Shown: piece by piece, positions 38,749-46,759 of the stretch | How positions within the stretch are numbered: position 1 is the stretch's first letter | Layout of the letters: the number at the start of each line of letters is the position of its first letter | From: Nitrospira japonica | GTDB taxonomy: Bacteria > Nitrospirota > Thermodesulfovibrionia > UBA6902 | Reading direction: 5' to 3' | NCBI GenBank assembly: GCA_020723105.1 | Contig: DYJL01000001.1 | Location: 1-64,000 of the forward strand | DNA length: 64,000 nucleotides | The notes under the pieces: generated by a model | Told to the model about the DNA's origin: nothing | What the model saw: the letters and a program-made list of their open reading frames with translations, nothing else | The model's database searches: none | Position numbers and translations under genes: made by a program

Positions 38749-40512
38749 TTAAAATAAACCTTTGACTTTACCTGTATTCACGTCTACGTCAACTCTGCGG
38801 TAAGCAGGGTCTGAAGCGGTTCCAGGCATTAATTTAATTGCACCTGCAACAGGGACCACAAAGCCTGCGCCTTTGTAAGTGAGGATGTCGCGTACCAGGA
38901 GTTTCCATCCTTTGGGAACGCCTTTCAGGTTCGGGTTATCAGTAAGGCTCAGATGTGTTTTGACCATGCACGTTCCAAGTTTCTGTATCTCGGGGTCTTC
39001 CTCCATCCTCTTTGCCTTTGCAAGCGCCTCAGGCGTATATTCAACTCCGTCTGCACCATAAACCTGCTCCGCAATTAATTCAATTCTCGTTCTGAGAGGA
39101 GTTGAGAGATCATAGAGAAACTTAAAGTTATTTGGTTCATTGCATGCATCAACAACTGCATCTGCAAGTTCCAGCGCTCCTTCTCCACCGTACTGCCAGT
39201 GTTTAGAAAGAGCAACCCTTGCGCCTGAGGACTCTGCAATCCTGCGGACCGCCTTGATCTCGTTGTCGGTATCCGTGTAGAAGGCGTTTATACACACGAC
39301 CGGATTAATACCGGCCTTCTTAACGACATTGACCAGGTGAATGAGGTTTTCACAGCCTTTCTCCACCCATCCTACATTCTCGCCTTTGTATTCTTCAGGA
39401 ATCGGCTTGCCGGGCACTGGAATTGGCGCGCCTCCGTGACATTTCAGAGCTCTGATAGTTGCAACAAGAACTGCAGCATTGGGCTTTAACCCTGAGAACC
39501 TGCACTTCAGGTTCCAGAATTTCTCGAACCCGATATCGGCAGCGAAACCGGATTCTGTTACGTTGTAATCACCAAGTTTAAGACCTATCCTGTCTGCAAT
39601 AATGGAAGACTGCCCGATCGCGATGTTTGCAAAAGGCCCTGCATGAACAAGCACAGGCTGCCCTTCGATGGTTTGCATAAGGTTCGGATTCAATGCCTCG
39701 ACCATCCATGCTGTCATTGCGCCTGCAACATTAAGGTCCTCTGTCGTAACGGGTTTACCGCTCTTGTCATACGCTACAACGATCCGGCCCATTCTCTCTC
39801 TCATGTCCTTCAGGTCTTTTGCAACGGCTAGGATAGCCATGACTTCAGACGAAACTGCTATTGCAAAGCCGGAGTTCATCATAAAGCCGTCGTTCTTGCC
39901 GCCGAGTCCTATTGTTATCTCTCTTAATGCCTGTGCGCAGAAATCCATAATCCATTTCATCTCCACGTTCCGTGGATCAATATTGAGTCTCTTTAATTTC
40001 CGTTTTGCAAGCTGGTCATCGGTATAATTAAATTCGTGCTGTATTCTGGAAGTAAGCGCTACCATTGCAAGGTTATGAGCATTCATGATTGCATTGATAT
40101 CACCTGTAAGCCCCAGAGAGAAAGGTGTAAGAGGAATGCATTGCGAGAGTCCGCCGCCTGCAGCAGAACCTTTGATGTTCATTGTAGGCCCGCCGGAAGG
40201 CTGACGGATAGCGGCTATAACGTTCTTCTTGCGTTTTCCGAGTCCCTGCGTCAGTCCCATTGTCGTAGTTGATTTGCCTTCACCAAGCGGGGTAGGGGTA
40301 ATGGCTGTAACGTCAACGTATTTCCCGTCAGATTTATTTGCAAGGCGTTTCAGTATTTTATTGAAATCCAGTTTTGCTACATAGTGTCCGTGCGGCAGAA
40401 GTTCCTCTTTTTGCAGTCCAAGTTCTTCGCCAAGCTGATAAACTGTTTTCATGTGCTTTTCAGCAGCTTCAGCTATTTCCCAGTCTGCATGTTTTGTTGG
40501 ATCAAGCGGCAT
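38749..40512 (-). CDS. fhs: Formate-tetrahydrofolate ligase
   Basis: 587-aa ATP-dependent enzyme making 10-formyl-THF from formate, the entry of the Wood-Ljungdahl methyl branch. The P-loop-like [20 protein letters not shown], the [19 protein letters not shown] region and [14 protein letters not shown] are diagnostic. The length slightly exceeds the usual 555-560. ATG 40512 is chosen because AGGAGG lies 8 bp upstream; a TTG two codons earlier is less likely. With folD, metV, metF and cooC it indicates a complete methyl branch. Confidence 0.95.
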
Positions 40513-40822
40513 GTTCAAATCCTCCTTAAAAATGGTTTGGTAACTAACCTGAGATAAAATTCTTTGCTGACATTTTGAAATTCAGGGAGTTGTGTTTTCC
40601 CTCTATTGTTAAATTTTAAAAAGCGCTTATGTATTTGAAGCTTCGAAAATAATGGAAACTGAAAGTTTAAAATCGTAGCATAGAGCATATTATGCTGTCA
40701 AACAAAATCTTATAGCGAATATTACTATTTGAAAATGTAATAAAAGCCCTTCTGAATTTCTTCTCAGTTATACTGCTGCACTATTGGATTTTGCGTCTGT
40801 ACGGAGGCTTATGACTGAAGGC
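40513..40822. other. Intergenic region upstream of fhs and of the riboswitch
   Basis: AT-rich gap containing the fhs ribosome site and presumably its promoter on the minus strand. I see no gene, repeat or RNA signature in it apart from short imperfect palindromes such as GCATA-x6-TATGC near 40678. Confidence 0.5.
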
Positions 40823-40852
40823 TTGACATAAGTTTTCTGTTTCAGATAAGGT
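40823..40852 (+). promoter_or_regulatory. Candidate promoter of the riboswitch transcript
   Basis: Perfect TTGACA at 40823-40828 followed by TAAGGT at 40847-40852 (18-bp spacer; GATAAG with 16 bp is the alternative). Transcription would begin just before the aptamer at about 40860. Confidence 0.55.
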
Positions 40853-40865
40853 ATCTTTACAAAAA

Positions 40866-40973
40866 AATAAAGGGGAGTAGCTGAGTTGGTGGATATCGTC
40901 AGCACGTTCCGTTTTACACCGTTATGCGGGACCGGTACCACTGGTTAGGTAACTAATAAGCAAGACCTTTACC
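40866..40973 (+). ncRNA. yybP-ykoY family (Mn2+) riboswitch
   Basis: The region begins AAAGGGGAGTAGC, the 5' consensus of the yybP-ykoY aptamer, and ends GCAAGACCTTTACC, its 3' consensus; AAAGG and CCTTT form the closing P1 stem. The segment between can fold into the two-legged four-way-junction layout of the family. In other bacteria this RNA binds Mn2+ and turns on manganese exporters or P-type ATPases. Here the 3' strand AAGACCTTTACC is also the 5' arm of the terminator at 40962-41013, so metal binding would free the transcript from termination (an ON switch). Downstream are a zinc-ribbon gene and a P2A-type cation ATPase. Confidence 0.85.
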
Positions 40974-41013
40974 ACGGGAACATTAAATGTATGTTCGTGG
41001 TGAAGGTCTTTTT
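40962..41013 (+). terminator. Riboswitch expression-platform terminator
   Basis: Stem AAGACCTTTACCACG-G-GAACAT, loop TAAATGT, then ATGTTC-GTGGTGAAGGTCTT and a run of Ts. It is a nearly perfect 20-bp stem and is mutually exclusive with aptamer stem P1, because both use the strand at 40962-40973. Confidence 0.88.
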
Positions 41014-41051
41014 ATTAATAACATAAAGATAAAATAAAGGAGGAAACAAGT

Positions 41052-41357
41052 ATGCCAGGAAGACCAAGTGAAAAAGAAGCAGAATTTATCGCACGAATGG
41101 AGTATGAAAGAAGAAAGAAGATCGAAGAGGAAAAACACAAAAAGCTTAAGGAGGAAGAGAAGAATAAACTGAAGGAACTCCATCATATGAGATGCCCTAA
41201 GTGCGGGATGGATCTTTTGGAGATAGATTATAAAAACATTAAAGTCGATAAATGCTCTGAATGTGAAGGTATATGGCTTGACGCTGGAGAGCTTGAGGCC
41301 GTATCAAAACTCGAAAAGGGCGGACTTGATAAGCTGTTCAGTGTGTTTAAAAAATAG
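41052..41357 (+). CDS. TFIIB-type zinc-ribbon protein (zf-TFIIB)
   Basis: 101-aa protein. A charged, Lys/Glu-rich coiled-coil N-terminus (residues 1-45) precedes a zinc ribbon, MRCPKCGMDLLEI ... VDKCSECEGIWLDAGELE, the two CxxC pairs of the zf-TFIIB family. GGAGG lies 8 bp before the ATG. It is the first gene after the Mn riboswitch, so its expression should respond to metal. Function unknown; a metal-handling or regulatory role is inferred from context only. Confidence 0.85.
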   Translation: MPGRPSEKEAEFIARMEYERRKKIEEEKHKKLKEEEKNKLKELHHMRCPKCGMDLLEIDYKNIKVDKCSECEGIWLDAGELEAVSKLEKGGLDKLFSVFKK

Positions 41358-41458
41358 TTTTAATAATTTCTTAAATTTAGATTAATCCAGATTGTTCATG
41401 AATTTTACCCTGGAGGAAGTGTGGCTCTCCAATAGAGAGAGAGGCGTGCTTCATCTAT

Positions 41459-41622
41459 CAGGTTGCTGAAAAAATATTTTAGCTGTCTTTGCGAGCGAAG
41501 CGAAGCAATCTTTCTTTACCGCTCGGGATAAATTCCGCAAACTCAAAATTAATAAGTTTGAGATTGCTTCGTCGCAAAATACGCTCCTCGCAATGACAAT
41601 TACAGACTTTTTCAGCAGCCTG
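41459..41622. repeat. Composite nested palindromic element, copy 3 of the GCGAG family
   Basis: 164-bp element. The outer inverted termini are CAGGTTGCTGAAAAA and TTTTTCAGCAGCCTG, the same as the solo palindrome at 25256. Nested inside are TTTGCGAGCGAAGCGAAGCA...TTTCTTT and GAGATTGCTTCGTCGC...CTCCTCGCAATGAC, the TCATTGCGAG family seen at 18602 and 27505. An element appears to be inserted within another. It stands between the zinc-ribbon gene and the ATPase gene; the rest of the 315-bp gap holds no gene. Confidence 0.87.
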
Positions 41623-41672
41623 TTATATCTATAAAGAATGTAGATCAGGTGAAAAACAGTAACAGGAGTTTT

Positions 41673-44375
41673 ATGCGCTGGCACCAGAAAACAGTTACAG
41701 AAGTTATAGATGAGTTTAAATCGTCAATTCACGGTATATCTTCAGAAGAATCTATCAAACGTCTTGGGGAATATGGCCTGAATGAATTAAAGGAAAAAAA
41801 GGGGAAGACCCCCTTTATGATGTTCCTGGACCAATTCAGGGACTTCATGATCCTGGTGCTTGTCGCTGCCGCTGTTATTTCAGGATTCATAGGCGAGTTA
41901 TCCGATACCATAGCAATAATTGTAATTGTCGTCCTTAATGCGGTTATCGGTTTTATACAGGAATACAGGGCTGAAAAAGCAATGGCGGCCCTTAAGAAGA
42001 TGTCCGCGCCTTCTGCAACAGTTGTAAGGAACGGAACGCCTGAAACTGTATCAGCTTCTCAGCTTGTTCCGGGAGATGTTGTCATCCTTGAAGCCGGGAA
42101 TATTGTTCCTGCTGATATGAGGGTAATCGAGTCTGCCCAATTGAAGGTTGAAGAGGCCGCTCTCACAGGTGAATCAGAAGCTGTTGAAAAGCATACCAAT
42201 GCCTTGCATGATGAGCATTTGCCGATAGGAGACAGGAAGAACACAGCATACAAAGGCACATTTGTAACCTATGGACGCGGCACAGGTATTATTGTTGCAA
42301 CAGGGATGGATACAGAGCTTGGCAAGATTGCAACTATGCTGCAGGAAGAGGAGGAGGTAAAGACGCCTCTTCAAAAGCGGCTTGCAAGCTTTGGACAAAA
42401 ACTCGCCGTTGCCGTACTTGCCATATGCGCAATAGTTTTCAGCATTGGTGTGATGAGAGGGGAACAGGTTCTGTTAATGCTGCTTACTGCTATTTCACTT
42501 GCAGTCGCCGCAATCCCTGAGGCACTGCCTGCAGTCATAACAATATCCCTGGCCCTTGGTGCAAATAAACTGGTAAAACAGAACGCCCTCATAAGAAAAC
42601 TCCCCGCAGTGGAAACACTCGGCTCTGTGACATACATCTGCTCTGATAAAACAGGAACGCTCACGCTGAATAAAATGACGGTGGAGGAGATTTATGTAGA
42701 CGGGGAAATTGATAGGGTAGACCCCCGTGTCTACCCTATCAAAAAGGGCGAACACGGGGGTTCGCCCCTACATACGTTGTTCACTGCTCTTGCCCTCAGT
42801 AATGATGCTGTTTTCAACAAAGATGGAAATGTCATTGGCGATCCGACGGAGATAGCGCTTTTTGATATTGCTGACAGGTATGGTTTTAATAAGCAGGAAC
42901 TTGAAAATGAATTTCCGAGAGTTGCTGAGATTCCGTTTGACTCAGACAGAAAGTGCATGACGACTTTTCATAAAGCAGGGGTTAGGAGTCAGGGGTTAGG
43001 GGTTAGTAAAGAAATTTCCCCTCCCTTGACTGGAGGAGGTGAGGGGGAGGGTGGATATGATTTCCTTTCTTTCACTAAAGGAGCGATTGAAGTCCTGCTT
43101 GTTAATTCAGACAATATCATGACATCTCAGGGGATGATGGAAATAGACAGGGAAGAAATCCTCAAGGTCAGCGACAGGATGGCTGCTGACGGTTTGAGAG
43201 TCCTTTGCATTGCCATGAGAAAGTGGGATAACCTGCCTGAAGATATGTCTGCTCAAAATGTGGAAAAGGGCCTCACTATTTTAGGTCTAATCGGTATGAT
43301 GGACCCTCCGAGAGAAGAGGCAAGAGAAGCTGTAGCCATGTGCAAAACAGCCGGAATAAAACCTGTGATGATAACAGGCGACCATCCGCTTACAGCGAGG
43401 ACTATAGCCCGGAGACTCGGAATTATTGAAGATGACTCCAGGGCAATCATTACGGGAAGGGAACTTGAAAAGTTATCGCTTGAGGAATTTGAAGAAAGGG
43501 TCGAGCACATAAGACTATACGCAAGAGTAGCTCCGGAACAGAAGTTGAAGATCGTGAAGGCGCTTCAGGACCAAGGACAGTTTGTTGCCATGACAGGAGA
43601 CGGCGTCAATGACGCCCCTGCATTGAAGAGGGCTGATATCGGCGTGGCAATGGGGATTACAGGGACAGACGTTTCAAAGGAAGCAGCCCATATGATTCTC
43701 ATTGATGATAACTTTGCCACGATTGTAAAGGCAGTAAAAGAGGGCCGAAAGATATTCGATAACATAAGAAAATTCATAAAATATCTTCTGACAACAAATT
43801 CAGGTGAGATATGGACGCTCTTTCTGGCGCCTCTTGCAGGATTGCCGATTCCGCTTTTGCCAATCCATATACTATGGATAAACCTTGTAACCGACGGGCT
43901 TCCTGCCCTTGCCTTGTCTGTCGAACCGGCAGAAGAAGATGTGATGAAGAGACCGCCAAGGCATCCGAAGGAGAGCATATTTGCATCCGGATTAGGACTT
44001 CATGCCATATGGGTTGGGCTTCTGATGGCTGGTATTGTTCTTTTTGTTCAGACATGGTCCATCAAGACTGAGCAGGCACACTGGCAGACCATGGTATTTA
44101 CAGTTCTTTGTCTTACACAGCTCGGACATGTCCTTGCAATAAGGTCAGAAAAGGAATCCCTTTTTAAAATTGGATTGTTTTCCAATAAGTATCTTTTGAC
44201 TGCTGTAATATTGACATTTATTCTACAAATGGCAACGGTATATGTACCTGTCCTGAATCCTATATTCAAAACAGAGCCGCTGACCTTAAATGAATTGGTG
44301 CTTACAATTGCCTTGTCGTCTATAGTATTTTTTGCTGTAGAGATAGAGAAGCTGATAAAACGGCGCCAACGCTGA
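41673..44375 (+). CDS. P2A-type cation-transporting ATPase (Ca2+/Mn2+), with repeat insertions
   Basis: 900-aa P-type ATPase of the SERCA/PMR1-like group. Visible are LTGESEAV in the actuator domain, [13 protein letters not shown] in M4, the phosphorylation motif CSDKTGTLT near residue 325, [10 protein letters not shown] near 641, and [14 protein letters not shown] in M6. The riboswitch upstream suggests Mn2+ as a substrate. CAGGAG before the ATG at 41673 sets the start; a GTG eight codons earlier is less likely. Two stretches in the nucleotide-binding domain (encoded by 42704-42775 and 42977-43055) are repeat-derived in-frame insertions of about 24 and 26 residues that the family normally lacks. 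Confidence 0.92.
42711..42767. repeat. Double-hairpin palindromic element in frame in the ATPase gene, with complementary loops
   Basis: Hairpin 1: GATAGGGTAGAC (42711-42722), loop CCCCGT, GTCTACCCTATC (42729-42740), perfect 12-bp arms. After AAAAA, hairpin 2: GGGCGAAC (42746-42753), loop ACGGGG, GTTCGCCC (42760-42767), perfect 8-bp arms. The two loops are exact reverse complements, so they could kiss. The element is read through in frame as part of the ATPase nucleotide-binding domain. Confidence 0.92.
42977..43051. repeat. Heptad array plus inverted repeat in frame in the ATPase gene
   Basis: Heptads AGGGGTT, AGGAGTC, AGGGGTT, AGGGGTT (42977-43004) are followed by a separate imperfect palindrome, CCCCTCCC (43018-43025) against GAGGGGGAGGG (about 43041-43051). 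Together they encode a Gly/Ser-rich loop of the ATPase (VRSQGLG, then [13 protein letters not shown]). Confidence 0.87.
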
Positions 44376-44467
44376 TGAATTATGTATCAGCAAAGGTAGA
44401 CCTCCCGGTTTACAAATATTAACCTTGTCATGTTATCCTTTTGAAAACCATACGTAAAAAGTATACG

Positions 44468-46549
44468 ATGCAATCTAATATATTATTCCCTATAAATGCC
44501 GAGAGTTTTACCTATTTCGTTCCAGAAGAACTTAAAGGAAAAATTAAGGTCGGTTCTCGGGTCCTTGCGCCTTTTAAGAAGGGAAGCAAGACAGGAATAG
44601 TGGTTGGAATAAGTGAAGATACAGACATGCTTGTTGGGGCTGGGGCAAGCCCTGCCCGAATTGATACAAATAAAAGGGCCGATGTAAAGGCTGCCACTAC
44701 AAAGAATGGCAAAGAAATCACCCTTAAATCTATTGAAGCCATCCTTGATGAGGAGTCTCTCATCCCTGACAATCTATTAAAACTCATTCAATGGGTAGGA
44801 CAGTATTATATGTCAACTACGGGGCTGGCTTTAAAAAATGCGGTGCCTTCCGGAATTTTTGAGGGCAAAAAAGGTGGAAAGGGCAGAATTGCTTACGATG
44901 ATACAGTTACACCTGTAAAAAATTATAATCTTACTTCAGAGCAGCAAAAAGCGCTCTCGGAAATTAATAAGACCCCGTCAGGCCCTTTTCTTCTCCATGG
45001 CGTTACAGGCAGTGGCAAAACTGAAGTTTATATCAGGGCTATTGAAGCGCTTGGCGATAAAGAGGCGATAGTTCTGGTCCCTGAGATTGCACTTGCCGCA
45101 CAGATTGTTGACAGGTTCCGCAGTCGTTTCCATGGTAAGGTAGCAATATTTCACAGCGGTCTTTCCACGGGAGAAAGAGTTTCACAATGGCTGAAAATAA
45201 AAAAAGGCGAGGTTAAAATAGTGCTTGGCGTCCGGAGCGCTGTCTTTGCTCCTTTTAAGAATCTTGGACTCATAATTGTGGATGAAGAACATGAGGCTTC
45301 GTATAAACAATTTGAAGGACTGAAATACAGCGCGAGAGATGTTGCGCTTGCACGGGCCAAGATTGAGGGGCTGAAAATAATCCTCGGCTCGGCTACACCG
45401 TCCATTGAAACTTATTATCATGCAAAAAAAGGAAATCTCACATATCTTGCACTGAGCAAAAGAATACAGCAGAAACCCATGCCGGAAGTTGAGATAATAG
45501 ATATGATAAAAGAGGAGAAAGAATCGCCGTCCTTTTCAAAAAAACTTCTGAAAGTTCTAAGGGAGAATCTTTCAGAAGAACATCAATCCCTCATCATGCT
45601 TAACAGGAGGGGATACTCACCGTTTCTTATGTGCACAGACTGCGGGTATACATATAAATGTCCGGCATGCAGCATTACCCTTACATACCATAAAGATACG
45701 AAGACGCTGAATTGCCATTACTGCAATTCACATCTTATGCCGCAAAATGTCTGCCCCAAATGTAACGGAATAAAACTGAAATACCTCGGCCACGGCACTC
45801 AAAGGGCTGAAGAGGAAATTCGTACCCTGATGCCAGAACTTTCCTTAAAGAGAATGGACCGGGACACAACCAGAAAAAAGCTTTCTCACTACAGGATTGT
45901 GAAAGATATGGAGGAAAAAAAGATTGACGTGCTGCTGGGCACACAAATGGTTGCCAAGGGGCATGATTTTCCGGAAGTAACGCTTGCTGCAATTGTTTCT
46001 ACAGATGTGGCATTGAATCTGCCGGACTTCAGATCGTCAGAAAGAACCTTCCAGTTACTGACTCAGCTTGCCGGCAGGGCAGGGCGTGGCGATGTAACAG
46101 GAAAAGTATACATGCAGACTTATGAGGCGCACCATTATGTTTTTGATTATGTACGCAATTATGATTACACTGGTTTTTATAACAAGGAAATAGAATTGAG
46201 AAAAGATCTGGCTTATCCGCCTTTCAGTAAGCTTATCAGAATTGTTCTGAATTTCAGAAACAAGGAGAAGGGGATAAATACTATGAAAGAGGTTTCTCTC
46301 AGAATAAAAAATACCATCCAACACCAGAATTCAAAGTTCAGAATTCAAAGTTCAAAACTCGAATTTGAAATTCTTGGCCCTTCGCCTGCGCCTATTGAAA
46401 AAATCAGAAATTTCTGGAGGTGGCATCTAATCTTAAAAGGCAGGAATTCAAAATCTCTCAGGCAGGCGGCATTTAAAATTCTGGAAATAATTAACGGTCT
46501 TAAGGATATAAAAATTGATGTGGATGTAGATCCGATTAATCTGCTTTAA
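44468..46549 (+). CDS. priA: Primosomal replication-restart helicase PriA
   Basis: 693-aa superfamily-2 helicase for replication restart. The N-terminal 3'BD domain is followed by the Walker A motif HGVTGSGKTE near residue 177, the DEEH box near 271, GSATPSIE, and a zinc-binding insertion with CTDCGYTYKCPACS and CHYCNSH...CPKC (about 389-434). The helicase motifs GTQMVAKGHDFP and QLAGRAGRG follow. The start could be ATG 44468 or TTG 44441; no strong ribosome site helps. A heptad array (46327-46375) adds Q/S/K-rich residues in the C-terminal domain. A possible GC-rich palindromic insertion is at about 44634-44657. Confidence 0.93.
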   Translation: MQSNILFPINAESFTYFVPEELKGKIKVGSRVLAPFKKGSKTGIVVGISEDTDMLVGAGASPARIDTNKRADVKAATTKNGKEITLKSIEAILDEESLIPDNLLKLIQWVGQYYMSTTGLALKNAVPSGIFEGKKGGKGRIAYDDTVTPVKNYNLTSEQQKALSEINKTPSGPFLLHGVTGSGKTEVYIRAIEALGDKEAIVLVPEIALAAQIVDRFRSRFHGKVAIFHSGLSTGERVSQWLKIKKGEVKIVLGVRSAVFAPFKNLGLIIVDEEHEASYKQFEGLKYSARDVALARAKIEGLKIILGSATPSIETYYHAKKGNLTYLALSKRIQQKPMPEVEIIDMIKEEKESPSFSKKLLKVLRENLSEEHQSLIMLNRRGYSPFLMCTDCGYTYKCPACSITLTYHKDTKTLNCHYCNSHLMPQNVCPKCNGIKLKYLGHGTQRAEEEIRTLMPELSLKRMDRDTTRKKLSHYRIVKDMEEKKIDVLLGTQMVAKGHDFPEVTLAAIVSTDVALNLPDFRSSERTFQLLTQLAGRAGRGDVTGKVYMQTYEAHHYVFDYVRNYDYTGFYNKEIELRKDLAYPPFSKLIRIVLNFRNKEKGINTMKEVSLRIKNTIQHQNSKFRIQSSKLEFEILGPSPAPIEKIRNFWRWHLILKGRNSKSLRQAAFKILEIINGLKDIKIDVDVDPINLL
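46327..46375 (+). repeat. AT-rich heptad array in frame in priA
   Basis: Seven contiguous 7-bp units: GAATTCA, AAGTTCA, GAATTCA, AAGTTCA, AAACTCG, AATTTGA, AATTCTT. The first four form two perfect 14-bp copies. They encode a stretch (HQNSKFRIQSSKL) before the conserved ILGPSPAPIEK. Confidence 0.88.
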
Positions 46550-46673: not shown

Positions 46674-46759
46674 GCCGGAGTGGTGGAATGGCAGACGCGG
46701 TGGACTCAAAATCCACTGAGGGCAACCTCGTGGGGGTTCAAGTCCCCCCTCCGGCACCA
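46674..46759 (+). tRNA. tRNA-Leu (anticodon CAA), with encoded CCA
   Basis: 86-nt class-II tRNA. The acceptor arms are GCCGGAG/CTCCGGC with discriminator A and encoded CCA. The anticodon stem GTGGA/TCCAC encloses the loop CTCAAAA, giving CAA for UUG codons. A variable arm (GAGGGCAACCTC) and the T-arm GGGGGTTCAAGTCCCCC are present. Its 3' end abuts the integrase gene of the conjugative element and is the likely attachment site. Confidence 0.97.

Follow-up and report, generated by a model that had tools for sequence, protein, structure and literature searches.

Our analysis of the window, i.e., the whole 64,000-nucleotide stretch of Nitrospira japonica DNA, suggested that a yybP-ykoY Mn2+ riboswitch very probably serves as the transcriptional ON switch of an operon that encodes a P2A ATPase for cation efflux together with a zf-TFIIB protein. 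Computation established how the RNA folds, that its metal site is conserved, that it overlaps a terminator and how the operon is ordered (Table 1).

Table 1. Features of the riboswitch locus and the operon downstream in the window.
Feature	Position	Strand	Details
-35 promoter element TTGACA	40823..40828	+	exact TTGACA
Mn2+ riboswitch aptamer	40867..40973	+	P1.1, L1, P1.2, P3.1, L3, P3.2, P4; without P2 hairpin; R2 56.3 bits, R1 88.4 bits
Loop L1 core	40874..40879	+	G9 Mn2+ contact = 40875, A10 A-minor base = 40876
Loop L3 CGTCAGCACG	40897..40906	+	U39, C40, A41, C45 equivalents; A41 = discriminator adenosine at 40901
Intrinsic terminator overlapping P1 3' strand	40955..41016	+	26 pairs, -29.3 kcal/mol alone
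Small zf-TFIIB (Zn_ribbon_TFIIB) protein	41052..41357	+	101 aa; PF13453 E 1e-14
Interspersed repeat between zf-TFIIB and ATPase genes	41453..41628		terminal inverted repeats 41453-41473 / 41608-41628
P2A cation ATPase, PMR1/LMCA1-like (Ca2+/Mn2+ class)	about 41673..44375	+	Pfam cation ATPase N and C domains

Judged from its sequence, the RNA is an ordinary member of the known class of yybP-ykoY (Mn2+) riboswitch aptamers, as the original prediction had proposed. Both consensus elements named there are present, GGGGAGTAG at 40872-40880 and GCAAGACCTTTACC at 40960-40973, and the leader is conserved from genus to class in DNA searches. The fold of the leader had a z-score of -4.75, and none of 200 shuffled sequences was equally stable. 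When 29 members from the same taxonomic class were aligned, unguided RNAalifold returned the yybP-ykoY fold P1.1-L1-P1.2-P3.1-L3-P3.2-P4, in which positions 40868-40873 of the window pair with 40966-40971 to form P1.1 and the outermost P1 pair is an A-C mismatch. Across 97 matches, standard pairs occupied 95.3% of pair cells and two-sided changes were seen at 22 of 28 pairs; this level of covariation was reached by none of 500 shuffles, and slid controls also fell far below it. Two covariance models were then compared, R1 built from 29 class RNAs including that of the window, and R2 built from 41 RNAs of other phyla, none of them Nitrospirota. The R2 match at 40866-40973 was the top match of the whole genome, with an E-value of 1.5e-11 that, like all R1 and R2 E-values, is rough because calibration was shortened. 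R1, whose score on the window is that of a training member, recovered E. coli alx (44.4 bits, approximate E 4.9e-12) and mntP (23.7 bits, approximate E 1.4e-6), and homology to validated members was thereby statistically supported in both directions.

The public model RF00080 behaved differently, giving no match above its cut-off anywhere in the window and 7.5 bits at the riboswitch locus against a gathering score of 45. Such a missing covariance-model hit had been named as a refutation in the original prediction, yet the miss carries no weight, because RF00080 likewise overlooked E. coli K-12 alx and mntP at gathering score (alx was absent even at E 0.05) as well as 16 further loci from other phyla that share the motif and in many cases lie upstream of TerC or P2A genes. 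Both E. coli RNAs are described as Mn2+ riboswitches in the literature (PMC9603457). The cut-off was passed by none of 200 class genomes, and the copy in Rfam 15 (tested on L067 and L176) has a printed consensus without a P1 helix and with an end other than the GCAAGACC element. As this test does not discriminate, a match to RF00080 was not treated as defining. The same miss might also be expected of a plain intrinsic terminator or attenuator that resembles the two consensus words by chance, but such a coincidence is exceedingly improbable, being already refuted by the independent model R2 together with the covariation, and the RNA was found in 80 of 230 class genomes. Regulon counts that rely on RF00080 are too low, since large parts of this well-studied riboswitch class, even two textbook cases from E. 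coli, escape the public Rfam model.

The residues of the metal site point to the same riboswitch class. In the L. lactis structure 4Y1I, Mn2+ is contacted by G9, U39, C40, A41, U44 (a phosphate contact) and C45 (PMC9190785), and A10 has an A-minor role (PMC6754395). With the L3 words aligned by eye, these contacts correspond to G40875, U40899, C40900, A40901, A40904 and C40905 of the window, respectively, and A10 corresponds to A40876. Loops L1 (GGGGAGUA) and L3 (CGUCA..ACG), with the equivalents of G9, U39, C40, A41, C45 and A10, are all present in the window and in 90-97 of 97 relatives; A40876 was invariant among the 97 aligned matches, and G40875, C40900 and A40901 were each conserved in 96 of them. 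The equivalent of U44, which is A in the window as in alx, is the sole contact residue that is changed.

The P2 hairpin of the four-way junction has no counterpart in the window, where GGGGAGTA and CGTCA lie only 17 nt apart, too close to accommodate it, whereas the L. lactis RNA has P2 and a four-way junction, and the four-way junction of X. oryzae also includes this hairpin. Sixty-three of 96 members share the 17-nt spacing and 14 more have 16 or 18 nt; a spacing of 23 nt was seen in 6 of 96, most with a short P2-like hairpin. In E. coli alx the spacing is 18 nt and P2 is apparently absent too, and a search with a fixed-spacing pattern returned at least 118 loci from Bacillota, Pseudomonadota and others, most from other phyla. 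Because alx and many other phyla share the short spacing, the absence of P2 was ruled out as a novelty and represents variation of a known kind, P2 not being a defining element. E. coli alx (yybP-ykoY, RF00080), which is found by models built without it, resembles the window RNA in its L1/L3 core, in the L1-L3 spacing without room for P2 and in its P3 and P4 arms; the two differ in that the P1 3' strand of the window RNA is re-used by a terminator, and in the genes that follow, zf-TFIIB and P2A ATPase genes in the window but a TerC gene for alx.

The terminator consists of arms at 40955-40983 and 40991-41016, whose inner 20 pairs are broken only by a 2-nt bulge, in good agreement with the near-perfect 20-bp hairpin first described. 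Its 5' arm contains the 3' consensus element, also as anticipated, and the strand 40966-40971 is common to P1.1 and the terminator, so that the two structures, using the same nucleotides, are mutually exclusive. When P1 was enforced, the energy was -27.8 up to about 40992, as good as that of the fold without constraint; the full-length RNA reached -53.8 in the terminator state versus -39.4 with P1 enforced. Enforcing P1 is almost free until about 41000 has been transcribed; with a complete terminator the penalty is about 14 kcal/mol. In 87 of 96 class copies, a T run lies downstream, preceded by a segment able to pair with the P1 3' strand. Upstream of the aptamer, the -10 element of the window is weak (about 40845-40850), and a stricter promoter scan did not return the window promoter. 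At least five of the six TTGACA positions were present 25-60 nt upstream of the aptamer in 79 of 96 relatives, mostly at 35-40 nt, compared with 12 after shuffling.

In studied members, Mn2+ bound between L1 and L3 stabilises P1.1 and the terminator is blocked (PMC6754395, PMC11087558); the L. lactis yoaB riboswitch has a terminator overlapping P1.1, as in the window, and is an ON switch (PMC11087558, PMC9190785), the direction that we infer here. Because the same parts occur in the same order as in these members, and the arrangement is shared by most class copies (87/96), Mn2+ as the ligand and the ON direction can be proposed with high confidence by analogy, and the ON logic of the original prediction stands on the same footing. 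At low Mn2+, the terminator would capture 40966-40971 and transcription would stop near 41010-41016. With Mn2+ bound between L1 and L3, P1.1 would be held and the terminator could not form; read-through would then allow the zf-TFIIB protein and the ATPase to be made, and Mn2+ would be exported.

The genes downstream are those first proposed, a PF13453 zinc ribbon and, beyond a repeat, a P2A ATPase. The zf-TFIIB protein carries the two-CxxC ribbon of PF13453, and this part matches the solved chain 8yoz; it is distinguished from PF13453 proteins by a charged segment of about 45 residues at its N-terminus, and an accessory role in metal efflux is inferred for it. The ATPase belongs to the same family as the P2A ATPases PMR1/SPCA and LMCA1, with full-length similarity, and its nearest solved structures are LMCA1 and then SPCA1. 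Its best NCBIfam model was the PMR1-type TIGR01522, with 758.9 bits against a cut-off of 798.3, and since this score lies below the equivalog cut-off, its metal preference is, unlike theirs, not assigned; Mn2+ as the pump substrate is suggested by analogy with the studied members. The yoaB gene of L. lactis is likewise a P-type cation ATPase gene. A further difference from PMR1/SPCA and LMCA1 is the presence of repeat-derived stretches in the cytoplasmic domain. The segments 42699-42776 (palindromic) and 42980-43055 are repeat-like, poorly conserved and in frame within the ATPase gene, and at both corresponding sites of the cytoplasmic domain the ATPase of the relative L107 carries repeat-like peptides that differ from these.

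The zf-TFIIB-to-ATPase gap is 319 nt in the window versus usually 25-140 nt in relatives. It is long because a repeat entered it; this repeat, which has the ends CAGGTTGCTGAAAAA and TTTTTCAGCAGCCTG and matches the genome at about 60 places, resembles a MITE-type element. In relatives the ATPase belongs to the operon, a correction to the original prediction, and in the window, where the gap carries the repeat, the riboswitch transcript most likely includes, or once included, the ATPase, since the repeat accounts for the excess length and the gaps of relatives are short. Separate transcription of the ATPase was rejected on the same grounds. The locus is flanked by genes for FTHFS (38749-40518, minus strand) and PriA (44441-46549, plus strand), and the sole Rfam match in the window was a Leu-type tRNA gene, its variable arm long, at 46674-46756.

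The identified relatives carrying the RNA belong to Nitrospirae/Thermodesulfovibrionia. As the first gene after the 96 copies, HtpX was commonest (37), followed by zf-TFIIB and beta-carbonic anhydrase (12 each), P2A ATPases (9, plus 2 ATPases of a second type), GDT1/UPF0016 (4), UPF0114 and UPF0182 (3 each), and TerC, a small zinc ribbon and an HflK-like band-7 protein (2 each), among others. The order riboswitch, zf-TFIIB, ATPase recurs in L107, L117, L119, L120 and L121, and in relatives the same RNA is followed by the canonical Mn2+ exporters TerC and GDT1/UPF0016 as well as by P2A ATPases. The htpX gene of the window's own genome had no riboswitch match. Beta-carbonic anhydrase lies directly 3' of the riboswitch where it is the first gene (L103, L131, L142 and others), and this placement may be connected with the way in which Mn2+ riboswitch genes depend on pH.

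Such targets raise the alternative of a homologous RNA that has come to sense pH or another cation instead, many class targets being membrane protease or other stress genes and not exporters. The prevalence of HtpX and carbonic anhydrase as first genes, and a connection drawn between alkalization and the mntP and alx riboswitches of E. coli (PMC9603457), would agree with such a shift. It is nevertheless quite unlikely, as hardly any variation was seen in the first-shell Mn2+ residues, the discriminator adenosine among them, and TerC, GDT1 and P2A pumps, all known Mn2+ exporter families, lie downstream of the same RNA.

The association of zf-TFIIB and HtpX with this riboswitch was also examined outside the class, at 87 riboswitch loci from outside Nitrospirota for which sufficient downstream DNA was available, with 242 strands of the same loci as controls. 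The HtpX model matched at six of the 87 loci, all from Selenomonas and behind TerC where this could be read, and the zf-TFIIB model at four, three of them in Xanthomonadaceae directly before TerC and one in an Actinomycetota-labelled MAG; neither model matched any control strand (0/242). The riboswitches and neighbouring genes of two Actinomycetota-labelled MAGs (L216 and L261) are very like Nitrospirota ones, which reflects either transfer or mis-binning. The original prediction had stated that the zf-TFIIB protein has no known metal link, a view revised by this recurring genomic association with Mn2+ export. No paper linking htpX, zf-TFIIB or carbonic anhydrase to Mn2+ riboswitches was found in the open-access library searched, which does not prove absence. 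Judging by genome context, zf-TFIIB and HtpX recur as partners of manganese efflux, an association that is apparently unreported and the least expected of our results. In B. subtilis, TerC proteins co-purify with HtpX and FtsH, and cells without TerC proteins require FtsH for viability (PMC10246235), which makes a shared manganese and membrane-quality response plausible.

The chances appear evenly balanced that small zf-TFIIB proteins and the HtpX protease are dedicated bacterial Mn2+-stress parts, separately placed under Mn2+ riboswitches in several lineages, with zf-TFIIB assisting or regulating the adjoining exporter (P2A ATPase or TerC). These associations provide a lead to the function of small zf-TFIIB proteins, a common family, and would, in Nitrospirota, tie manganese stress to carbonic anhydrase as well as to membrane proteolysis (HtpX, HflK-like); the zf-TFIIB and HtpX lead is testable in culturable Selenomonas or Xanthomonadaceae.
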